DNA of 64,000 nt from Streptomyces sp. NRRL WC-3605. Its GTDB lineage: Bacteria > Actinomycetota > Actinomycetes > Streptomycetales > Streptomycetaceae. Below, piece after piece: positions 39,572 to 51,380 of the stretch. Where the stretch lies: NCBI RefSeq assembly GCF_001509795.1, contig NZ_LLZN01000001.1, positions 186,001 to 250,000 of the forward strand. The letters run 5' to 3'. Within the stretch, counting starts at the first letter, position 1. Every line of letters starts with the position of its first letter. Under the pieces are notes generated by a model. That model was not told the origin of the DNA. It ran no database searches and saw only the letters and a list, made by a program, of their open reading frames with translations. A program made the position numbers and the translations under genes.

Positions 39572-39651
39572 GATCTCCGACGGGCGACCGCCCGCTCGGA
39601 TACTGACCCCGGTACCTGATACGGCCGGGGCAGACACACAGGAGAAAGAAC

Positions 39652-40218: not shown

Positions 40219-41076
40219 GTGAGTGACGAAGTGGAACCCGGGTACGTACGGCTGCGCCTCGACCTGTCGTACGACGGCACCGAGTTCTCCGGGTGGGCCA
40301 AGCAGGCCGGCGGGCGTCGGACCGTGCAGGGGGAGATCGAGGACGCGCTGCGGACCGTCACCCGGTCCGGGGGCACCACGTACGAGCTGACCGTCGCGGG
40401 GCGGACGGACGCCGGGGTGCACGCGCGCGGGCAGGTCGCCCACGTGGATCTGCCGCGCGCGGTGTGGGCCGAGCACAGCGAGAAGCTGCTCAAGCGGCTC
40501 GCCGGGCGGCTGCCCAGGGACGTGCGCGTGTGGGCGCTGCGCGAGGCGCCCGCCGGGTTCAACGCCCGGTTCTCCGCGGTGTGGCGGCGGTACGCCTACC
40601 GCGTGACCGACAACCCCGGGGGCGTCGATCCGCTGCTGCGCAACCACGTCCTGTGGCACGACTGGCCGCTCGACGTGGACGCCATGAACGAGGCGGCCCA
40701 AGGGCTCCTCGGGGAGCACGACTTCGCCGCCTACTGCAAGAAGCGGGAGGGCGCGACGACCATCCGCACTCTCCAGGAGCTGAGCCTGGTGCGCGGGGAC
40801 GACGGGATCGTCACCGCGACCGTGCGGGCGGACGCCTTCTGCCACAACATGGTGCGCTCGCTCATCGGGGCGCTGCTGTTCGTGGGGGACGGGCACCGGC
40901 CCCCGGACTGGCCCGGCAAGGTGCTCGCCGCCGGTGTCCGGGACTCCGCCGTGCACGTCGTACGGCCGCACGGGCTGACCCTCGAAGAGGTCGGCTATCC
41001 GGCGGACGAGCTGCTGGCCGCGCGGAACAAGGAGGCGCGCAACAAGCGGACGCTGCCCGGCGCCGGCTGCTGCTGA
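40219..41076 (+). CDS. truA: tRNA pseudouridine(38-40) synthase TruA
   Basis: A 285-residue synthase with GTG start after GAGAGGATCTACGG. The catalytic Asp lies in [15 protein letters not shown], and [26 protein letters not shown] and [14 protein letters not shown] are TruA landmarks. It converts uridines 38-40 of several tRNAs to pseudouridine. It is convergent with a minus-strand lipoprotein gene whose stop is only 2 bp away. Confidence 0.97.
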
Positions 41077-41078
41077 GC

Positions 41079-42065
41079 TCAGTCCCGGTCCAAGGTGGCC
41101 AGCGTGTCGGCGAGGGCGCCGGCGGCGGAGTCGGCGTCGCGGCCGTCGCCGCGCGCGACGGCGGCGAGCTCCACGTGCAGGAACAGGGCGTGCCGGCGCT
41201 CGGCCGTCCTGCCCTGCACGTTGGCCGTGCCCTCCAGCGGGCAGCGGGCCGACCAGCCGCGGCAGACCCGCAGGCCGTCGGCCTCCAGCCGGTCGGCCAG
41301 GGCGGTGGCCTCGCCGGGTGCGCTGCCGGCCGCGCCGCCGGACACGATGGCCTCGTAGGGGCGCTCGCGGGTCCGGGAGAAGCCGTGCAGCTGCAGGCCG
41401 GGCACCCCGCGCTTCTGCAGTTCCTCGACGACCGTGTGGAAGGCGCTGTCCTCGCGGTGCGCCACGTCCGCGGAGCCGGAGCGGCCGGCCCTGCGGTGGG
41501 CGCCGGCCAGGACCAGCGCGCCGGACGGGGTGTCCTCCAGCAGCCGGACGCCCAGTTCCTCGGTGTCGCGGTCGGAGACCGGATGGGGCACCTGGACGTT
41601 CCAGCGCAGGGTCGAGTCGGCGTTCAGGTAGAGGCGTCCCCAGTGCGCGGCGTCGCCGTCGGGCTCGGTCGCGGCTATCTCGTCGTAGCGGCGGCCGGAG
41701 TCGGTGTCGGTGAGGCGGGTCACGGAGAGGCCGAGCGGGGAGAGCCGGCGCTCGGCCTCCGCCGCGTCACCGTCGAGCAGCGCGCCCACCCCGTCCGCCA
41801 GCCGCTCGCGCTCGTCGGTGCCGGGCGGGCTGTAGTGGCCGTCGGGTGCGAAGTCCGCCGTGTACGTGAGGACGCGGCTGCGCAGATCGACGAGTTCGCG
41901 GGCCTGCGGAGCCGACGGTTCCGTGCGGTCGGCGGATGCCGAGTCGCAGGACGCGAGTGCGAGGGTCAGAACCGCCGGGGCAAGAATGCGAGTGAAACGT
42001 GATGCTCTTGTGATGAATGACGGCGATTGAGATGTGAGTGGCATGTGAGTATGTCGCGGTGACAT
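41079..42065 (-). CDS. Lipoprotein of unknown function
   Basis: A 328-residue protein from the ATG at 42065 (GGAGAG about 9 nt upstream) or 321 residues from the ATG at 42044. It has a basic/hydrophobic signal and lipobox LASC (Cys40 or Cys33). The mature part is acidic and Arg-rich with no family I recognise; segments include RVLTYTADFAPDGHYSPPG, LYLNADSTLRWNVQVPHP and LQLHGFSRTRERPYEAIVSG. It ends 2 bp from truA and its start abuts or overlaps that of the divergent capA gene. A link with that surface-polymer cluster is possible from position only. Confidence 0.82.
   Translation of the reverse strand: MSPRHTHMPLTSQSPSFITRASRFTRILAPAVLTLALASCDSASADRTEPSAPQARELVDLRSRVLTYTADFAPDGHYSPPGTDERERLADGVGALLDGDAAEAERRLSPLGLSVTRLTDTDSGRRYDEIAATEPDGDAAHWGRLYLNADSTLRWNVQVPHPVSDRDTEELGVRLLEDTPSGALVLAGAHRRAGRSGSADVAHREDSAFHTVVEELQKRGVPGLQLHGFSRTRERPYEAIVSGGAAGSAPGEATALADRLEADGLRVCRGWSARCPLEGTANVQGRTAERRHALFLHVELAAVARGDGRDADSAAGALADTLATLDRD
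42027..42055 (+). promoter_or_regulatory. Candidate promoter of the capA/pgs-like cluster
   Basis: TTGAGA (42027-42032), 17 nt, TATGTC (42050-42055), ending only 3 nt before the predicted capA GTG. If real, the transcript would be leaderless or nearly so, and the promoter would lie inside the start of the divergent lipoprotein gene. Confidence 0.4.
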
Positions 42066-43267
42066 TCCGTAAGTCTCTCCGTATAGGTCGCTCGGTGGCG
42101 GTTCTGGGGGCTTTGGCGGGCCTCGTGACCGCCTGTTCCTCCTCCGAGCCGTCCGGGGCCCAGGTGAAGCCGGGGGGCCGCTCGTTCACCGTCGCCGCCG
42201 CGGGTGATGTGCTCATCCACCCCGAGCTGGTCGACCAGGCGGCCAAGGACGCCAAGAAGACCGGTGAGGGGCGGGCCGGGCTGGACTTCGGACCGCTGAT
42301 GGCGGGTGTGAAGCCCATCATCAGCAAGGCCGACCTGGCCATCTGTCACATGGAGACGCCCGTCGGCACTCCCAAGGGACCCTTCGAGGGGTACCCCGAA
42401 TTCCTGGTCCCCCCGCAGATCCTCACAACCCTCAAGGACGTGGGGTACGACACCTGCTCGACGGCCTCCAACCACACCTTCGACCACGGCCTCAAGGCCG
42501 TGAAGCGCACCCTGGACGCGATGGACAAGGTGGGTCTGGGACACACCGGGTCCGCGCGTACGCCCAAGGAAGCAGAGCAGATCAACATCCGGGACGTCAA
42601 CGGCGTCAAGGTCGCTCACCTGGCGTTCTCGTGGGAGTCGTTCCTGAACCCCACGCCCGAGAAGCAGAAGTGGGCGTTCAACCGGCTCGGTACCGACGAG
42701 ATCAAGAAGGCCGAGGCTCGCGCCCGAAAGAAGGGCGCCGAGGTCGTGATCCTCTCCGTCCACTGGGGTCTGGAGCACTACAACGAGCCCAGCGTGCCGC
42801 AGCTGGAGCTGGCCGAGCGGATCACCAAGGAGACCGGGGTCGACCTGGTGATCGGCCACCACGCGCACGTCGTGCAGCCCATCCAGAAGGTCAACGGCAC
42901 CTGGGTCGCCTACAGCCTGGGCAACCAGGTGGCCCGTCACTCCTCGCCGACCGGCCTCACGGAGGAGGGCGCGATCGGCTGGTTCGAGTTCAAGGAGACG
43001 TCGGACGGCGGCTGGAAGGTCGACGCGCGCTACCGGACCACGCTGGTCGACATCCCGCCGGAGCTGGAGGCGGGGGAGAAGGCCCCCGAGGGCGCGGTCG
43101 TCGACCACCGGCTCGTGGACGTGCAGAACGCGCTGGACCACCCCGGTGACCTGTCCGAGGACCGGATGGCCCGCTACCGGCTGGCCGCCGACCGGACGCG
43201 CGGCTTCCTCTACAACCGCGGCGCACCCGGCGGCGACGGCCTCGAGCAGTTGTCCCTGGGGAAGTGA
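42059..43267 (+). CDS. capA: CapA/PgsA-family lipoprotein (poly-gamma-glutamate synthesis, metallophosphatase fold)
   Basis: A 402-residue protein with GTG start, signal peptide and lipobox LVTAC (Cys26). The body is a CapA-type calcineurin-like domain: FTVAAAGDVLIH, DLAICHMETPVG, STASNHTFDHG, VVILSVHWG, VIGHHAHVVQP and YSLGNQVA carry the Asp, Asn and His metal-ligand positions. In Bacillus, PgsA/CapA is the extracellular membrane-anchored partner of PgsB and PgsC, needed for polymer transport. Here it heads a run of five co-oriented genes that includes PgsB and PgsC homologues. A start conflict exists with the divergent lipoprotein gene, and no ribosome site is visible. Confidence 0.9.
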   Translation: MTFRKSLRIGRSVAVLGALAGLVTACSSSEPSGAQVKPGGRSFTVAAAGDVLIHPELVDQAAKDAKKTGEGRAGLDFGPLMAGVKPIISKADLAICHMETPVGTPKGPFEGYPEFLVPPQILTTLKDVGYDTCSTASNHTFDHGLKAVKRTLDAMDKVGLGHTGSARTPKEAEQINIRDVNGVKVAHLAFSWESFLNPTPEKQKWAFNRLGTDEIKKAEARARKKGAEVVILSVHWGLEHYNEPSVPQLELAERITKETGVDLVIGHHAHVVQPIQKVNGTWVAYSLGNQVARHSSPTGLTEEGAIGWFEFKETSDGGWKVDARYRTTLVDIPPELEAGEKAPEGAVVDHRLVDVQNALDHPGDLSEDRMARYRLAADRTRGFLYNRGAPGGDGLEQLSLGK

Positions 43268-43384
43268 CAAGGGACACAGCAAGCACTTTCGCGCCGGAGC
43301 CCAACCTCCGCGCGTGTCGGAAGTCTTTTAGAGCGACGGCGTCTCATGCCCGCGTCAGCGGTGGCTCCTGCGAGCGCCTGAGTA

Positions 43385-45742
43385 GTGAAGAGGCGAAGGA
43401 AACCACCGGTGACTCCAACCCAAGCTTCCGCGCGTCCCGGACGCGGCGGTCGGCGGCGCATGCGCAGACGCGCGGACATGCCGCTGCTGGGCGGCGTTCG
43501 ACCGCCGATCGCGCTGCTGTGCCTGCTGATCGTCGCCCTGGCCGGGCTGACGGCGAAGGTGCTGGGCCCGGCCGGCGACCCCGTCGTGCCGAAGGCGGTG
43601 CTGGGCTCGCAGCAGCACTTCGCGGAGGACGGCGCCATCGCCCTGCGCGCGTCGATCGACGAGCGGGTCACCGATCTGAACCGCACCGCGGCCGTGCTGA
43701 ACGCCGCCGGGTCCGCGGACCCGGAGCAGGTGCTGTCGGACCTGAGCAACACGTACCAGAAGTGGACCGGCACCACCGTCCTGGACCTGGAGAGCGGCAA
43801 GGTGCTCGCCGCTAGAGGAGAAACGATTCCTCTGGCCTGGCTGGACAAGGACGTGCTCCGGGGCGACAACGCCCTCACCCCGCGCATGGTCCGGCTGAAG
43901 ACCGGCGACGTGCGGCTGATGACCATGGCGCTCCTCGACTGGAAGGACCGCCCGCAGCAGCTCCTCATCGCCTCCAACAGCCTGTCCGTGCCCGCCATCA
44001 ACCTGGGCCCGTTCCGCTCCATGGCGGTCGTCGCCCGGGGCGGCGAGGTCCTCGCCACGGCCGGTTTCGAGCAGGCCGAGGCGCTGAACTCCGACGCCGA
44101 GCGCGACGAGCTGACCTTCCTCCAGAAGCAGATGGGCCGTCTCTCCGAGGAGGCCGCCAAGGAGACCGAGCAGGACCCGGTCAGCGCCAAGGAGCCCGGC
44201 TCACGCGGCTACCCCGGTGTCAGCGGGACCCTGCTCGGCGACTCCTACAACGGCCGGATCGCCACCGCCGGCTACGCCTCCCTCGCCTCCGCCGATCCCG
44301 AGCAGCGCAAGAGCGTCGGCGCCGGCCTCGGCCTGACCGTCGTCGCCATGCTGCCCGTCGTGCAGGAGGAGGCCGCCGGCCAGGAGCGGGAGCTGTACGG
44401 GCTGATCGCGGCGGGCGTGCTCGTCGTCGTCGGCCTGCTCGCGGCCGCCCTGCTCTGGCGGGCCGTGCAGCGCCCCCTGCTCGCCCTCTTCCTGGAGTCC
44501 CGCCGGCTCGCCCGCGGCGATCTGACCCGGCCCGTCGCCGTGCCCCGCTGGGGCGAGGCCGCCCGGGTCGGCGCCGCCCTGGAGCGGCTGCGCGCGCAGC
44601 TGGCCGGCGGGGACGTGGAGCCCTCCACGCAGCGCACCCCCCGCCGCGGCCGGCTCGGGCTGCGGGTGCCGCTCGGCCTGACGGCCGTCCTGCTCCTGCT
44701 GTGGTGCGTCCCGGTCGGGCTGCTGCTCAACCGCACGGACGCCTCGGTCAGCGTGCCCAGCACCATGGTCAACGACCAGCGCGACCGCACCGACCTGGTC
44801 GCCGACCGGGTCCGCCGGGCGCTGAACGAGGCGCAGGCCGACCTCGCGTCCATGACCCGGCTGATCGACCCGGCCGACCCCGACGCCGCCTCCGGCGCGC
44901 TGTCCGACGCCCTGCGCAAGCACACCCGCTACGCCTCCCTCTACGTCATCGACCGGGGCGGCGAGGTGATCGCGCGGGCCGGCGCCGATCCGCACGCCGC
45001 CTGGGGCGACGACGAGGAGACCAAGGGCGAGGACGCCCGCCTGATCCGGGTGACCGGCGAGGGTGGCAAGAAGCCGGTCGTCCAGGCCGCGGCCGCCGTA
45101 CCGGACCACAAGGGCATGACGCTGGTCGGCGAGATCCGCGTCGAGTTCCTGAACTCGCTGCTGGCCCGGCCGGGCCTCGGCGAGGTCCGCGTGGTCGACG
45201 CCGAGGCCAGGACCATCGCCGCGAGCGACGGCTTCCTCGCCTTCGAGGACCTGCCGCGCGACGCGCTCACCGACCTCGTACGGGCCGGCGGCGTCAAGGT
45301 CGGCGCCGGACCCGTGGAGAACGGGCTGCTCATCCGCGAGGGCCGCTCCGTCACCGTCGCCGCGGCGGCCCCCTTCTCCGGCGGCGGTGTGGCCTCCGAC
45401 GTCGGCTGGACCGTCGTGAGCTGGCAGAACGCCAAGCACTTCGAGATCGCCGCGTATGAGCGCGAGGACCGCAGCGTGCTCGCCGGGATGCTCGGGCTCG
45501 CCCTGATCGTGGTCTGCCTGGGCTGGATCCACCTGGTCGTGGTCCGGCCGCTGCGCGCCCTCGCGAGCAGCGCCGAGAAGCTGGCCGACGGCGACCTCAA
45601 GACCGTGCTGTACCCCCGCTACCACGACGAGGTGGGGGCCGTCGTCCGCAGCCTCGAACTGGTCCGCCAGCAGTTGCAGGCCCGCAGGCAGAACCAGGCG
45701 CGCCGGAGTGCCGAGCCCCGGCTCGGCGCCGGAGGAAGGTGA
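43385..45742 (+). CDS. Tandem sensor protein: two TM-extracellular-TM-HAMP modules, no output domain
   Basis: A 785-residue membrane protein with GTG start. Four transmembrane segments lie near residues 41-60, 338-360, 427-447 and 698-720. They bracket two extracytoplasmic domains (about 61-337 and 448-697) with Cache-like features such as YASLYVIDRGGEVIARAGAD and VVDAEARTIAASDGFL. Each second TM is followed by a HAMP-like segment (PLLALFLESRRLARGDLTRP and PLRALASSAEKLADGDLK). No kinase, cyclase or methyl-accepting domain follows. It sits 6 nt before the PgsB homologue, so it is probably a dedicated part of the polymer machinery, perhaps a scaffold or signal input. Function is inferred from context. 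Confidence 0.85.
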   Translation: MKRRRKPPVTPTQASARPGRGGRRRMRRRADMPLLGGVRPPIALLCLLIVALAGLTAKVLGPAGDPVVPKAVLGSQQHFAEDGAIALRASIDERVTDLNRTAAVLNAAGSADPEQVLSDLSNTYQKWTGTTVLDLESGKVLAARGETIPLAWLDKDVLRGDNALTPRMVRLKTGDVRLMTMALLDWKDRPQQLLIASNSLSVPAINLGPFRSMAVVARGGEVLATAGFEQAEALNSDAERDELTFLQKQMGRLSEEAAKETEQDPVSAKEPGSRGYPGVSGTLLGDSYNGRIATAGYASLASADPEQRKSVGAGLGLTVVAMLPVVQEEAAGQERELYGLIAAGVLVVVGLLAAALLWRAVQRPLLALFLESRRLARGDLTRPVAVPRWGEAARVGAALERLRAQLAGGDVEPSTQRTPRRGRLGLRVPLGLTAVLLLLWCVPVGLLLNRTDASVSVPSTMVNDQRDRTDLVADRVRRALNEAQADLASMTRLIDPADPDAASGALSDALRKHTRYASLYVIDRGGEVIARAGADPHAAWGDDEETKGEDARLIRVTGEGGKKPVVQAAAAVPDHKGMTLVGEIRVEFLNSLLARPGLGEVRVVDAEARTIAASDGFLAFEDLPRDALTDLVRAGGVKVGAGPVENGLLIREGRSVTVAAAAPFSGGGVASDVGWTVVSWQNAKHFEIAAYEREDRSVLAGMLGLALIVVCLGWIHLVVVRPLRALASSAEKLADGDLKTVLYPRYHDEVGAVVRSLELVRQQLQARRQNQARRSAEPRLGAGGR

Positions 45743-45748
45743 CCGGAC

Positions 45749-47521
45749 GTGCTCTACCTCTACTTCGTGCTGCTGATCGGCGGGGTCTTCCTGCTGGTCG
45801 CCGGCATCATCGAGCAGCGCAGGCACTACGCCGCCCTGCACACCATCCCCTCGCGGGTGCTGGTCAACGGCATCCGCGGCAAGTCCTCCATCACCCGGCT
45901 GTGCGCGGGCGCCCTGCGCGGCGGTGACCTGGTCACCGTGGCCAAGACGACGGGCACCGCGGCCCGCTTCATCCACCCGGACGCCACGGAGGAGCCGGTC
46001 TACCGCAAGTTCGGCATCGCCAACGTCGTCGAGCAGATCGGCATCGTCCGCAGGGCCGCCACCTACCGCCCCGACGCCCTTGTCATCGAGTGCATGGCGG
46101 TCATGCCGGCGCTGCAGGAGGTCAACCAGAGCAAGCTGATCCGCTCCACGATCGGCGTGCTGTGCAACGTCCGCGAGGACCACCTCGCCGAGATGGGCCC
46201 GACCCTGGACGACGTGGCGCGCTCGCTGTGCCGCTCCATGCCGGAGAACGGCATCTGCGTCACCGCCGAGAAGGAGCGCTTCCACATCCTGCAGGAGGAG
46301 GCGGACGCCCGGAACTGCAAGCTGATCTACGCCGACCCGGAGACCGTCAGCGACGAGGAGCTGCGCGGCTTCAGCTGGTTCACCTTCAAGGAGAACGTGG
46401 CGATCGCCCTGGTCGTCGCCGAGCTGCTGGGCGTCGAGCGCAAGGTCGCGCTGCAGGGCATGTACGACGCCCCGCCGGACCCGGGCGTGCTCTCCGTGGA
46501 GCGGTATGTCGCCCCCGACGGCAAGCGGCTCTCCTTCGCCAACGTGTTCGCGGCCAACGACCCCGAGTCGACGCTGATGAACATCAACCAGCTGCTCGAC
46601 CTCGGCGCGATCCGCCGCCCGCTGAACGTCGTGATCAACTGCCGCCCGGACCGGGTGGAGCGCAACGGCCAGATGGGCGAGATCATCCCGGACCTGCAGC
46701 CGGACAACGTCTTCGTCATCGGCCACCCGTCCAAGAGCGCCATCGACGCCATCCCCGCCGACTGGCGCGACCGCGCGGTCGACCTCGGCGGCGAGCGCCG
46801 CGCGGCGGACGAGTTCATGCCGACGCTGCTGGGCCGGATGGCCGACGGCTCCTCCCTGGTCGCCATCGGCAACATCCACGGACAGGGCGAGGAGCTGCTG
46901 GAGTACCTGGCCGAGCTCCCCGCCGACGAGAGCGCGGTGGAGGAGGCCCCGGAGGCGGTGGTCAGCGCACCGCAGCAGGCCCAGCGCCTCGACCCGTACG
47001 CCTCCTACCCGACGGCCTACGAGGAGCGGTACCAGGCCACGCAGACCCAGGAGATCCCGGTGGTCCGCATCCCGCAGCAGCCGGCCGCGTCGCACGGGGA
47101 CACCGCGGCGGCCTACGCCGGCGCTCCCGGTCAGCAGCGGGCGGACGGCTGGGGCGCGCGGGACGGGGCGTACGCGGCGCAGGGCGGACACGGCCAGGCG
47201 GCGGCGCCGTACGGGCAGCAGCCACCGGCGCAGCGGCAGCCGCGGCAGCCGCGGCAGCCCGGCCCCGGTCAGGGGCACGGCGCGGAGCCCGCGCCCGAGC
47301 CGCAGGCGTCCGCCTGGTTCCAGGCCCCGCCGGTGCGCCGGCCGAGCGCACCGCAGCAGCAGCCCGCGCGTCCGCAGCTGCCGCAGGGCACCGGCCCCGA
47401 CGGGCACCCCGGGCAGCCCTACGGCACGGGCCGGGCGCCACGGCAGCCGCACCCCGACGAGCACCAGGGCAGGCCACCGCGCCCGCCGGCCGGCGACGGC
47501 GGACACCCCCCGCGCGCCTGA
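45749..47521 (+). CDS. pgsB: PgsB/CapB-type poly-gamma-glutamate ligase with long disordered tail
   Basis: A 590-residue protein with GTG start. An N-terminal membrane segment (residues 4-20) is followed by the Mur-ligase-like ATP motif VNGIRGKSSITR (about 39-50). Segments line up with Bacillus PgsB: VAKTTGTAARFI, IECMAVMPALQEV, NVREDHLAEMGPTLDD, DAPPDPGVL, FAANDPESTL, NCRPDRVER and GNIHGQGEELLEYL. PgsB ATP-dependently adds glutamate through gamma-amide bonds. After residue 395 or so there is a 190-residue Pro/Gln/Ala/Arg-rich tail without hydrophobic order, absent from Bacillus PgsB (about 390 residues). It starts 6 nt after the sensor gene. Substrate is inferred. Confidence 0.92.
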   Translation: MLYLYFVLLIGGVFLLVAGIIEQRRHYAALHTIPSRVLVNGIRGKSSITRLCAGALRGGDLVTVAKTTGTAARFIHPDATEEPVYRKFGIANVVEQIGIVRRAATYRPDALVIECMAVMPALQEVNQSKLIRSTIGVLCNVREDHLAEMGPTLDDVARSLCRSMPENGICVTAEKERFHILQEEADARNCKLIYADPETVSDEELRGFSWFTFKENVAIALVVAELLGVERKVALQGMYDAPPDPGVLSVERYVAPDGKRLSFANVFAANDPESTLMNINQLLDLGAIRRPLNVVINCRPDRVERNGQMGEIIPDLQPDNVFVIGHPSKSAIDAIPADWRDRAVDLGGERRAADEFMPTLLGRMADGSSLVAIGNIHGQGEELLEYLAELPADESAVEEAPEAVVSAPQQAQRLDPYASYPTAYEERYQATQTQEIPVVRIPQQPAASHGDTAAAYAGAPGQQRADGWGARDGAYAAQGGHGQAAAPYGQQPPAQRQPRQPRQPGPGQGHGAEPAPEPQASAWFQAPPVRRPSAPQQQPARPQLPQGTGPDGHPGQPYGTGRAPRQPHPDEHQGRPPRPPAGDGGHPPRA

Positions 47522-47593
47522 CCCCGCGGGGCCGCTGCCGCGCAGGCCGCCCGCCCCGCCCACGAACCCGCACCCCTCTGTCCGGAGACCCCG

Positions 47594-48076
47594 TTGACCA
47601 CCGCCGCCCTGACCCCCGAGATGGCCGCCCTGGGCATCGCCATCGGCCTGTTCTTCTCGCTGCTGTGCTATCTCACGACCAACCTGTCGCCCGGCGGAAT
47701 GATCACGCCCGGCTGGATCGCGCTGACCCTCATCGAGGACCTCCAGCGCGCGGCCATGGTGGTCGGCGTCACCGCCCTCACCTACGGCGGCACCAAGATC
47801 ATGCAGCGGCTGGTGATCCTCTACGGCAAGCGGCTGTTCGCCGCGGTGGTGCTGCTCGGCGTGCTCCTGCAGGCCACGGTGATGATCGTGCTCTCGCTGG
47901 AGTTCCCGCTGCTCTACGGCAACCAGACCCTCGGCTTCATCGTGCCGGGCCTGGTCGCCTACCAGATGGTGCGCCAACCGAAGGGGGCCACGCTGCTGGC
48001 CACCGGAACGGTGTCCCTGATGGCCTACATCGTCGTCGCCGCCGGCCTGCTGCTCGGCGTCATGCCGACCGTCTGA
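47594..48076 (+). CDS. pgsC: PgsC/CapC-type membrane subunit of polyglutamate synthase
   Basis: A 160-residue integral membrane protein, close to the 149 residues of Bacillus PgsC, with about five hydrophobic segments. Shared segments are LVILYGKRLFAAVVLLG, LGFIVPGLVAYQMVRQ, and a Gly/Pro-rich turn (SPGGMITPGWIALTL). A TTG start at 47594 with CCGGAGACCCC upstream is used; an internal ATG is a shorter alternative. PgsB and PgsC together form the catalytic ligase in Bacillus. It is 72 nt after pgsB and 17 nt before the peptidase gene. No pgsE-like small gene is seen. Confidence 0.9.
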   Translation: MTTAALTPEMAALGIAIGLFFSLLCYLTTNLSPGGMITPGWIALTLIEDLQRAAMVVGVTALTYGGTKIMQRLVILYGKRLFAAVVLLGVLLQATVMIVLSLEFPLLYGNQTLGFIVPGLVAYQMVRQPKGATLLATGTVSLMAYIVVAAGLLLGVMPTV

Positions 48077-48093
48077 GATCCGAGGAGCAAACG

Positions 48094-49164
48094 ATGGCAG
48101 GGAAGAAGAAGTCGAGGCCCGTCGTCACCGGCCTGGTGCTGCTGGCGCTGGTCGGCACCTCCGGCTACCTCACGGTGGAGCTGCGCAAGCAGGAGGACCC
48201 GGGCATCACCGAGGTGCGCAACGTGGGCGTCCTGGAGGGCGGCCGCAGCACGGGGGAGAGCGAGGGCAAGGCGACCTGGTCGCGGCTGGAGAACCCGGCG
48301 CGCTCGGTGCTGCGCGGGGCCGACGGCCAGATCAAGGCCGTCTTCACGGACGGCGCCCGCATGGCGACGCTGACCGGCCCGGCCCGCACCTTCCAGGAGC
48401 CCGCGTCCACCGCGTCCAAGGTCAGCACCACGGACTGGGTGCGGCTGATGCCGGAGAAGTGGACCAAGGGCGCCGAGAACAAGAAGTGGTTCAAGGACTG
48501 GTACGCCGAGTACAAGGACAGCAAGGAGGACGACGTCTTCGCGTTCGCCTTCCAGTACGTGGCGGGCGCCCCGGACAAGAAGGACGAGCAGGGCGTCGTC
48601 TACGCCGGTGACGCCAACTTCGGGCCGCTGAACACCACGGGCGCCGAGGGCGGCGACCTGCGTCTGGAGCAGTCCGACTTCTACGACTTCCTCCAGGTGC
48701 CCTACCCGTTCCGGGACGGCACCGTCGGGCAGCCGGAGGCGAAGCGCGCCAGGTCCATCGACTGCTCGGGCTTCATGCGCATGGTGCTGGGCTACCGGGC
48801 CCGCTTCCCGCTGATGTCCTCCGACGCCTCAGGCGACGGCCTGCCCCGCACCGCCAACGGCATGGCCCGGTCCAAGGTGGGCGTCGACATCCTGCCGCTG
48901 ACCGGGATCTCCGCGAAGGACCGGCCCTCCGCGATCGACCAGCTCCAGCCGGGCGACCTCGTCTTCTTCAAGCTGGACACCCGCACCGGCGAGCGTCTGG
49001 ACCACGTCGGCATGGTCCTCGGCCACGACACCGAGGGGCACCTGATCTTCGTGTCCAGCCGCGAGGAGGTCAACGGGCCCACCATCGGCGACGTCGGCGG
49101 TGTGTCCCGGCTCGACGGCAACGGCTACTACGCGAAGACGCTGCGCAGCGCCAAGCGGCTCTAG
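48094..49164 (+). CDS. Membrane-anchored NlpC/P60-family peptidase
   Basis: A 356-residue protein with ATG after CCGAGGAGCAAACG. A single N-terminal membrane helix (about residues 10-27, VVTGLVLLALVGTSGYL) anchors an extracytoplasmic region. The C-terminal NlpC/P60 domain has Cys224 (SIDCSGFMRMVLGY) and His304 (RLDHVGMVLGHD) as the catalytic pair. In B. subtilis the gene next to pgsBCA encodes PgdS, an NlpC/P60 gamma-DL-glutamyl hydrolase that releases and trims the polymer. By analogy this enzyme may cut the polymer or attach it to the wall. Last gene of the cluster. Confidence 0.88.
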   Translation: MAGKKKSRPVVTGLVLLALVGTSGYLTVELRKQEDPGITEVRNVGVLEGGRSTGESEGKATWSRLENPARSVLRGADGQIKAVFTDGARMATLTGPARTFQEPASTASKVSTTDWVRLMPEKWTKGAENKKWFKDWYAEYKDSKEDDVFAFAFQYVAGAPDKKDEQGVVYAGDANFGPLNTTGAEGGDLRLEQSDFYDFLQVPYPFRDGTVGQPEAKRARSIDCSGFMRMVLGYRARFPLMSSDASGDGLPRTANGMARSKVGVDILPLTGISAKDRPSAIDQLQPGDLVFFKLDTRTGERLDHVGMVLGHDTEGHLIFVSSREEVNGPTIGDVGGVSRLDGNGYYAKTLRSAKRL

Positions 49165-49213: not shown

Positions 49214-50098
49214 TCACTCTCCGGCCGCCGCCGACGCCTGCGCCTCGCCGCGCCGGCGGATCTGACGGAACGTGAACTCGGCGAGGTCGTCACCGGCCTT
49301 GAAGGCGGCGGTGTCCTTGTCCGTCATGTTCCGGCCGCTGGTGAAGCCCGTGATGGTGAAGTAGGCGTACCGGCCGTAGGAGTTGGAGGTCGAGCGGCAG
49401 ACCGCCGCCGTGCAGAAGTCCTTGACGCCCTTGCCGGACAGCGAACGGACGATGTCCTTCTTGGTGTCGACCTTGCTCTTGGCCTTCTGGGCCTTCGCCT
49501 CGGTGTCGAAGACGGCCACGCCGACGGTCACCGCGATGCCGTCCTTGAGGTAGGAGACCCGCATGAAGCGGGTGCAGCCGCCCTCGGCGAGGATCTTCGG
49601 CAGCCCGCCCTTGGTGGCGGCCGAACAGTTCTTCGTGTCGTCCGTCGCGCCCTTCTTGTAGACCGTCTCCCCCATGGTCAGCTGGGTGCCGGGGAAGAGG
49701 ATCTGGGCGCCGAGCGGGGCCGTGTCCTTGTCCTTGCCGGAGATGAAGTCCTTGGGGTCCAGCGGCGGCGGGGCGCTGGTCGGCGCGAACGACGGGACGG
49801 CCGCCGACTCGCCCGGCAGGTCCGCCGTCGAGGGCAGGCCGGAAGCCGGTGCGCCGGACGCCGAGTCGTTCCCGTTCGCCGACACCACCGCCACGGCCAC
49901 GGCCGCACCGATGGCGACGGTGGCCAGTGCGCCACCGCCGATGAACAGCAGCCGGCGCCGCTTGTTGCGGGTCTCCGACGCCTCGGCCAGCGCGGCCCAG
50001 TCCGGGGTCTGGTCGGTGCCGCCGTTCCACGGCTGCTGGGAATGCGGTTTCCAGGGATCCCACTGGGACGGGGGTCCCCCCTGCTGCCCGTAGCTCAT
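49214..50098 (-). CDS. Conserved hypothetical single-span membrane protein
   Basis: A 294-residue protein starting MSYGQQGGPPSQWDPWKP; an ATG three codons upstream at 50107 is the alternative. Residues 1-45 are Gln/Trp/Pro-rich and cytoplasmic, a membrane helix follows RNKRRR near residues 50-75, then a Ser/Ala/Pro linker and an exported domain of about 190 residues with four cysteines (NCSAATKGGLP, GGCTRFMRV, DFCTAAVCRS), suggesting two disulfides. No function is recognised. It is convergent with the peptidase gene and divergent from the GT87-like gene. Confidence 0.85.
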   Translation of the reverse strand: MSYGQQGGPPSQWDPWKPHSQQPWNGGTDQTPDWAALAEASETRNKRRRLLFIGGGALATVAIGAAVAVAVVSANGNDSASGAPASGLPSTADLPGESAAVPSFAPTSAPPPLDPKDFISGKDKDTAPLGAQILFPGTQLTMGETVYKKGATDDTKNCSAATKGGLPKILAEGGCTRFMRVSYLKDGIAVTVGVAVFDTEAKAQKAKSKVDTKKDIVRSLSGKGVKDFCTAAVCRSTSNSYGRYAYFTITGFTSGRNMTDKDTAAFKAGDDLAEFTFRQIRRRGEAQASAAAGE

Positions 50099-50171
50099 GG
50101 GGCGCATCTTAGACGGACCTCGGGTGTGCCGGTCCGCCCCAAAGGGCCCTTCGCCACCTAGCGTTCAGGGG

Positions 50172-51380
50172 GTGAGCGAGCGCAAAAGCGACATCTCCGG
50201 GTGGTTGGTACGACGGGCGTCCTGGCCGCTGTGGGTCGCGCTGGTCGCCGTGCTGGGGGCCCTCGTGGCGCGCACGGCCCGGCTGACCTCGCGCGGAGGG
50301 ATGGACAACGCCATCGTCGTACGCGCGGCGAAGGCGTGGCTGGACGGCGGCTCGCCGTATGACGACCCCCACTTCCTCTATCTGCCGAGCGCGGTGCTGG
50401 CGGCGGCCCCGCAGGTGCTGGTTCCGCAGGACGTGCTGTGCGTGCTGGCGCCCCTCGTGGTGACCGGGTGCCTGGTGGGCGGGTGGGTCTGCGCGCTGCG
50501 GCTGCACGGCGTCCCCCTGCGCAGCCGCTTCGCGGTCCTCGGCCTGCTCGCGCTCGCGGCGGGCTTCGCCCCGTTCGCCCATCTCGTCTGGCTGGGTAAC
50601 TGGACGGCGACCGCGGCCCTGGCCCTGCCCCTGGTGCTGCTGCTCGCGGAACGCGGGCGGTGGGTGGCCGCGGCGGCGGTGCTCGGCGCGGCGGTGGCGC
50701 TGAAGCCGCTGCTCGCGCCGATGGCCCTGCTGTTCGTGTTCGCCCGGCGGTGGCGGGCCCTGGGCGTGCTGGTCGCGGTGCCGGTGGCGGCCTCGGCCGG
50801 CGCGGCCCTGACACTGCCGGACCCCGCCGGGTTCTTCACCCGGACCGTGCCGTTCCTGCTCAGCGGCGACGACCGGTTCGTCCGGCTCTACGAGGCGTCC
50901 CCGGCGGCCGTGCTGCCCCGGCTGGGGGTGCCCGGGGCATTGGCCGGGGCGCTGGCGTTCGCGCTCGCCGCGGCGGGCCTGGTGTGCGCCCGACGGCGCT
51001 GGCGCGGCGGCGGGGGCCCGCTGCGGTACGCCGAGACCGGGGCGCTGCTGATGCTCTCGGCCTTCCTGGTCTCCAGGCCGTCGTACGACCACTATCTGCT
51101 GGTCCCGCTGCCGCTGCTGCTGGCGGGGCTGCCGTACGCGGCGTCGGTGACCCGCACGGTCTGGTTCTGGATGGCCCTGGTGCCGCAGCTGCCCGGGGTG
51201 ACCTGGCCCTATCTGGAGGCGGGGGAGCGGCGGGCCTTCCGGGACGCCGTGACGCTGTGCGCCCTCGCGGTGACGGTGGGCCTGCACTCCTGGCGGCGGG
51301 CCGGCCTGGAGGCGGCGCCCGCCGTGCCCGTCCCGCCCTCGCGCGGGGCCGCGGCGCCGAGCAGCGCGTCCGGCGTGTGA
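50172..51380 (+). CDS. GT87-like (DUF2029) membrane glycosyltransferase
   Basis: A 402-residue polytopic protein from the GTG at 50172 (AGGGGG upstream); an in-frame ATG at 50097 would extend it into the divergent gene. About ten hydrophobic segments are seen. An early acidic loop (MDNAIVVRAAKAWLDGGSPYDDPHF) and VALKPLLAPMALLFVFARRW resemble the polyprenyl-phosphate-mannose-dependent GT87 family, and SYDHYLLVPLPLLLAGL follows. These enzymes mannosylate lipids or polymers on the outer membrane face. Whether it serves the neighbouring surface-polymer cluster is unknown. Confidence 0.75.
   Translation: MSERKSDISGWLVRRASWPLWVALVAVLGALVARTARLTSRGGMDNAIVVRAAKAWLDGGSPYDDPHFLYLPSAVLAAAPQVLVPQDVLCVLAPLVVTGCLVGGWVCALRLHGVPLRSRFAVLGLLALAAGFAPFAHLVWLGNWTATAALALPLVLLLAERGRWVAAAAVLGAAVALKPLLAPMALLFVFARRWRALGVLVAVPVAASAGAALTLPDPAGFFTRTVPFLLSGDDRFVRLYEASPAAVLPRLGVPGALAGALAFALAAAGLVCARRRWRGGGGPLRYAETGALLMLSAFLVSRPSYDHYLLVPLPLLLAGLPYAASVTRTVWFWMALVPQLPGVTWPYLEAGERRAFRDAVTLCALAVTVGLHSWRRAGLEAAPAVPVPPSRGAAAPSSASGV

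Follow-up and report, generated by a model that had tools for sequence, protein, structure and literature searches.

Synthesis systems of the poly-gamma-glutamate (PGA) type are reported from most phyla (PMC5542703). In Bacillus, the pgsBCA(E)-pgdS layout (PMC10897055, PMC5880399) combines PgsB, a CapC-family protein and CapA/PgsA with a downstream NlpC/P60 peptidase. The terms Streptomyces and actinobacteria do not occur in the text of a 2024 review of gamma-PGA (PMC10897055). Databases already name Streptomyces proteins PgsB, and the presence of PgsB in this genus is not new.

Here we analyzed a window of 64,000 nucleotides (contig C1) from the genome of Streptomyces sp. NRRL WC-3605 (7.58 Mb in 136 contigs). 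It carries five plus-strand genes in the order capA-receptor-pgsB-pgsC-nlpC, preceded by a divergent minus-strand gene that we call lip. The window has PgsB, the CapC family, CapA/PgsA and the downstream NlpC/P60 peptidase in common with the Bacillus locus, and differs from it in gene order, in a double dCache-HAMP receptor and in the divergent gene, whose predicted product is PghP-like. In our reading, the block belongs to a PgsBC lineage of its own, in which a polymer synthase is accompanied by an output-less receptor and two putative hydrolases. Searches of openly licensed PMC papers turned up no account of such a receptor-linked layout, none that assigns gamma-polyglutamate hydrolysis to the lip family and none of the polymer in Streptomyces.

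Receptor-linked and GGT-linked PgsBC loci

Among the PgsBC loci that we fetched (L138-L153), 12 of 16 carry a gamma-glutamyltranspeptidase (GGT) gene, typically after pgsB-pgsC-capA (385 bits to PF01019 for the GGT of L141). The four without it are the receptor-linked L146 and the loci L151-L153. Identity to the PgsB of the window is 34-39% for GGT-linked loci, 39-43% for L151-L153 and 63-97% for the receptor-linked kind. The GGT-linked actinobacterial operons have PgsB, PgsC and CapA in common with the window, but they possess a GGT and gave no receptor or lip match by tblastn. Conversely, tblastn with the L141 GGT gave no match, within the sequence covered, in any of 80 named loci. These are the most similar of 309 relatives in a scan of named genomes (79 titled Streptomyces and one Microtetraspora); they are close relatives, and the window is not among them. 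The GGT was equally missing from seven further receptor-linked loci (L121, L146, L185, L186, L189, L191, L194), and Pfam detected no GGT/CapD-type gene among nine genes of the window, namely the block and its flanks. An earlier reading of the window, made from sequence only, had proposed a layout unlike that of Bacillus and without such a gene, in agreement with these counts.

In the PgsB tree, the receptor-linked rows group together with a support of 94 (below the 95 that is starred, and with long branches present), and the nearest relatives of the window are Streptomyces; this is a quick tree in which 31 of 93 inner forks are open. If our reading of the block is right, a single annotation name would cover two or more types of actinobacterial PgsBC system, one linked to GGT and one to the receptor.

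PgsB clears the TIGR04012 equivalog cut-off of 222.7 by 152 bits (376.4 bits in the genome search), and TIGR04012 is the sole family listed for it in the NCBIfam scan; higher scores to unrelated Mur-ligase or transporter families, proposed beforehand as a check on the assignment, did not occur. It also matches PF08245 (26.2 bits, cut-off 24). Invariant across 13 PgsB sequences are the P-loop NGxRGKS, E114, D144-H145 and R299/D301/R302. The core of the protein corresponds to residues 1-390 and is followed by a variable proline/glutamine-rich tail (about 46919-47518). This Pro/Gln/Gly-rich tail comprises ~200 residues, and its length differs among relatives (open reading frames of 439-692 aa); it is missing in L146 and L186, both of which also have a single-unit receptor. 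Sequence searches of solved structures gave no matches with PgsB or with the NlpC protein.

CapA contains a lipobox (VTAC). Its GTG start is kept in 24/24 aligned rows and overlaps or nearly abuts the start of lip. We rejected CapA as an obligate neighbor, for capA is missing inside the cluster in eight of the 80 named loci. PF09587 genes occur elsewhere in the capA-less genomes but also in the PgsB-negative genomes G013 and G016; they therefore neither prove nor exclude a replacement of CapA in trans.

The receptor is the protein that the initial reading had called a tandem sensor. Its AlphaFold2 (AF2) model (predicted local distance difference test 73.6, predicted template modelling score 0.61) displays two units, each of a long helix, a mixed sheet, a helix and a helical hairpin, and stops after the second HAMP. 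Foldseek matched the model to dCache-type structures (E 1e-6 to 1e-8); for the dCache domains of the amino-acid chemoreceptors Tlp3, CtaA and PctA and for the KinD sensor domain, E was ~1e-6 to 1e-5 and the template modelling score ~0.6 on the target. Pfam detected one HAMP (residues 715-766, 54 bits) with nothing C-terminal to it, and no kinase, receiver, cyclase, MA or other output domain; NCBIfam matches all lay in the HAMP region, with scores well short of the cut-offs. Pfam dCache_1 was matched below cut-off only, and only in the homologues of L146 (395 aa) and L186 (374 aa), which consist of a single unit with a HAMP over cut-off and likewise have no output domain. The receptor thus models as two dCache-HAMP units without an output domain. 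Like dCache chemoreceptors and KinD-type sensor kinases, it would combine an extracellular dCache fold with a HAMP; unlike them, it is duplicated and ends at the second HAMP without a signaling output. In 77 of the 80 named loci, the stop codon of the receptor gene comes 3-9 bp ahead of pgsB. For the other three (L037, L099, L103) the gap could not be read (values of 200 and 2328 bp, probably caused by a frame or stop-codon error), and they count as misses.

Two putative surface hydrolases

The divergent gene lip was missed when the five genes were first taken for a complete system; the five are all present, and lip travels with them. Its product has no Pfam match and carries a lipobox-like LASC in the window copy. 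Six residues are invariant in 11 diverse sequences: H161, D165, H203, H227, E299 and R305 (numbered from 42065). They follow the order of the zinc, catalytic and substrate residues described for PghL, namely His41, Glu46, His77, His102, Glu165 and Arg171, of which Arg171 anchors a polyglutamate carboxylate (PMC6506827). Read as an ordered motif and not as a superposition, H161/D165/H227 would correspond to the zinc ligands H41/E46/H102, E299 to the catalytic E165, and H203 and R305 to the substrate residues H77 and R171. The same set is invariant in six PF05908 members (H63, E68, H126; E188; H101; R194), and the distance from Glu to Arg is 6 in both lip and PghL. Profile comparison of lip with PF05908 members by hhalign gave P values of 0.0094 and 3.5e-4 (probability 37% for the latter), against 0.57, 0.62 and 0.87 for controls.

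We therefore predict that lip encodes a PghP-like zinc gamma-glutamyl hydrolase. It has the order of catalytic and substrate residues in common with PghP/PghL (YndL, PF05908), together with weak profile and fold similarity. It differs in that an Asp replaces the zinc-ligand Glu, 66 residues instead of 61 separate the two zinc-ligand histidines, an N-terminal lipobox or hydrophobic stretch is present, and the gene is encoded beside the synthase. PF05908 was not matched at E up to 10 in 45 lip members (HMMER filters drop most matches above 0.1), and because of this we name the protein PghP-like only. A search with the lip profile (A8) retrieved 234 proteins; among the best 120 of these there was no Pfam match, and the names given were Streptomyces. 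One genome with PgsB over cut-off (L201, G493) encodes a protein of the PF05908 gamma-PGA hydrolase family elsewhere (98.5 bits).

Several alternatives for lip were discarded. One was the N-formylglutamate amidohydrolase proper that some UniRef names give (hhalign to PF05013 members, P 0.54 and 0.57). E169 was dropped as a zinc ligand, being no longer invariant once distant homologues were added, whereas D165 is. A non-ATG start at a conserved Ile/Val-Thr position was rejected as well, because many of 45 rows have GTC, ATA or some other non-start codon there. In 17 rows of the window's branch, position 42065 holds ATG or GTG in 17/17 and position 42044 holds ATG in 9/17. We thus withdrew 42044 as the sole choice; it is possible as an alternative start, 14 bp from capA, while the start at 42065 overlaps capA codons. 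A near-palindromic stretch around TATAAAGATA (TATCAAGATA in some) is conserved upstream of capA in L069, L074, L079, L083, L096 and L101. It sits within the ~20 bp that separate the ATG of lip from the GTG of capA, as though starts in both directions shared a single element.

The second putative hydrolase, the peptidase, contains one NlpC/P60 domain (residues 225-334), preceded by a hydrophobic stretch at the N terminus. C229 and H309 are invariant and H321 nearly so in 13 close and three distant actinobacterial homologues (numbered from 48079). It had been proposed to mirror PgdS, but the likeness is loose, as PgdS has three NlpC/P60 domains (PMC5880399). Because a related NlpC/P60 gene, on the opposite strand and 33-35% identical over the alignment, adjoins the GGT-linked PgsBC-CapA operons L141, L142 and L147, this peptidase is associated with PgsBC more widely.

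Distribution and genomic setting

The positions of the genes are listed in Table 1, with starts refined after the initial open reading frame (ORF) listing. In that listing the order is rpoA, rplQ, truA, minus-strand lip, the five plus-strand genes, unk2, a GT87 gene and rplM. The five co-oriented genes between truA and rplM were found where they had been described, each passing a family cut-off with a score well above chance, except that PgsC falls short of TIGR04011. A PgsE would not fit beside pgsC, where 72 bp separate it from pgsB and 17 bp from nlpC; no search for one elsewhere was made. An L17 ribosomal protein leader (RF03132, 73.6 bits) lies upstream of rplQ at 39577-39633 (+).

Table 1. 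Genes of the block and its flanks in the window.
Feature	Positions	Strand	Evidence or assignment
truA, just before lip	40219-41076		ORF listing
lip, divergent gene, 328 aa from 42065	41079..42065	-	predicted PghP-like zinc gamma-glutamyl hydrolase
capA, CapA/PgsA-type	42059..43267	+	PF09587, 223.9 bits (cut-off 27)
Tandem dCache-HAMP membrane receptor, 785 aa	43385..45742	+	HAMP 54 bits, AF2 model, Foldseek
pgsB, Mur-ligase-type poly-gamma-glutamate ligase	45749..47521	+	TIGR04012, 374.8 bits; invariant P-loop
pgsC/capC membrane subunit, 160 aa	47594..48076	+	PF14102, 119.7 bits (cut-off 27)
NlpC/P60 cysteine peptidase	48094..49164	+	PF00877, 32.5 bits, over cut-off
unk2, one hydrophobic stretch, function unassigned by Pfam	49214-50107	-	Pfam scan, no match
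GT87 glycosyltransferase gene, between block and rplM	50097-51380	+	Pfam scan

PgsB was over cut-off in 45/150 genomes of the genus (own genome included) and in 21/396 genomes of a phylum sample, where 180/396 gave a match of any kind at E 0.001, chiefly weak hits to Mur ligases. In a class sample, 14/394 genomes matched the PgsB of the window at E 1e-40, 11 of these in the genus. The block is hence not peculiar to this genome. Gene presence across loci was counted by tblastn, as ORF picking missed genes with frame or start problems. Among the 80 named loci, the receptor is present in 80, lip in 77, capA in 71, pgsC in 78 and nlpC in 79, with all five in 68. Of the 12 incomplete loci, eight are without capA in an otherwise intact block and L066 is without a pgsC match; L051 and L063 end near the missing genes (pgsC and nlpC in L063), and L102 and L063 are without lip despite 9 kb of upstream sequence. 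The core recurs in three other families, as lip, receptor, pgsB, pgsC and nlpC in L185, as lip, receptor, pgsB and pgsC in L186, and as receptor, pgsB and pgsC with two lip homologues in L146. One strain that carries the cluster is S. coeruleorubidus ATCC 13740 (L050). Some genomes possess two or three PgsB systems (L189, L190 and L191 in G145; L194 and L195 in G089; L192 in G094); L191 ends too near the receptor to judge lip or capA.

We rejected the truA-rplM interval as a special home of the system. Only 25 of the 80 named loci carry truA, rplM or unk2, as does the window; the other 55 show no such markers within the sequence covered, some contigs being short. The surroundings of truA were compared in 16 of 19 genomes with a truA match. 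The block lies near truA in 3/6 PgsB-positive genomes (G007, G009, G066) and in 0/10 PgsB-negative ones; truA-rplM is one of several sites. In the PgsB-negative genomes, unk2 is near truA in 9/10 and was not found in one; it follows truA within ~0.3 kb in 8/10, while ~7 kb of other DNA separates the two in G010 (L173). The PgsB-positive G004 and G089 have the empty truA arrangement and the system elsewhere in the genome, and G040 (L181) has ~8 kb of other DNA between truA and unk2. Because L181 and L173 hold other DNA, the truA-unk2 interval is a variable site also used by other cargo. Mapped onto the PgsB tree, location at the truA site takes 3 changes, where shuffled labels average 23. The block travels as one unit. 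A Streptomyces finlayi plasmid (P0095) carries an annotated lip homologue, which hints at transfer of the block.

A proposed sensor-coupled synthase and its alternatives

We propose, with a probability of about 60%, that the block encodes a variant PgsBC synthase coupled to a locally acting sensor, along with CapA and two surface hydrolases. PgsB, an ATP-dependent ligase with an N-terminal helix anchor, and the membrane protein PgsC would polymerize and export a gamma-linked polyglutamate-like chain, with CapA assisting outside the membrane. The receptor would read an extracellular ligand and tune the synthase, with direct contact inside the membrane as the likeliest route. The lip protein and the NlpC/P60 peptidase would cut the polymer at the cell surface for its release or recycling; the oligomers or amino acids sensed by the receptor may be products of this cleavage. 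In a published capsule classifier, CapB and CapC are mandatory, CapA is accessory, and a depolymerase that releases the polymer rules out a capsule (PMC5542703). By analogy, where two hydrolases are present the polymer may be shed or reused instead of forming a permanent capsule. We advance only tentatively, and consider somewhat doubtful, the stronger version in which the output-less receptor directly gates the secreted-polymer ligase via its HAMP and reads the fragments made by the hydrolases, forming a self-contained loop of synthesis, degradation and sensing in a distinct PgsBC lineage.

Two observations weigh against the proposal. The assignment of a PgsBC-type synthase holds for PgsB and, at the level of PF14102, for PgsC. 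Yet PgsC reaches just 69.0 of the 96.45 bits of the TIGR04011 equivalog cut-off, a main reservation, and because this cut-off is missed we consider it, by sequence criteria, a CapC-family protein of a divergent branch and not a PgsC equivalog. Second, the extra copies L189 and L194 have no lip or capA match, and L194 also no nlpC, which speaks against strict linkage; these copies may depend on a complete copy.

The receptor could instead be an ordinary orphan input unit that has no contact with the synthase and works through kinases or response regulators from other loci, or on gene expression. In L146 the receptor follows directly on two response-regulator genes (L146:2450-3192), and a response regulator and an Hpt gene lie beside pgsC in L186 (L186:5816-6498); with such genes next to the cluster, a relay in trans is conceivable. 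We consider this unlikely, as none of the nine Pfam-scanned genes of the window (other loci not scanned) encodes a partner kinase or regulator, the receptor has no kinase, receiver or methyl-accepting domain, and the close receptor-pgsB spacing favors a local partner.

Alternatively, the enzymes could act on the cell wall, with PgsBC adding gamma-glutamyl chains to or for peptidoglycan and the NlpC/P60 and zinc hydrolases as ordinary wall enzymes. This appears improbable given the resemblance of the lip profile to the PF05908 gamma-PGA hydrolases (P 3.5e-4) and the conservation in lip of the Arg171 position of PghL. We doubt to a similar degree that some other poly-amino acid, gamma- or amide-linked, is made in place of polyglutamate. 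The low TIGR04011 score of PgsC in the window's lineage and the 34-39% identity of PgsB to the GGT-linked actinobacterial type would fit such a product, whereas the 152-bit margin of PgsB over its equivalog cut-off and the PghP-like gene that travels with it argue for polyglutamate. Finally, a standard PgsBCA capsule locus with incidental neighbors is highly improbable despite the presence of PgsB, PgsC and CapA, since receptor, lip and nlpC are kept in nearly all named loci, in and outside the truA site, and the core is conserved in three further families.

If the sensor-coupled reading is right, about 30% of the sampled genomes of the genus (45/150) would carry a PgsB that belongs to regulated machinery for making a polyglutamate-like polymer, either secreted or at the surface. 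The lip proteins would then represent an overlooked family of gamma-polyglutamate hydrolases without a Pfam model, and the block would allow a test of receptor control over a polymer synthase in which no kinase takes part.

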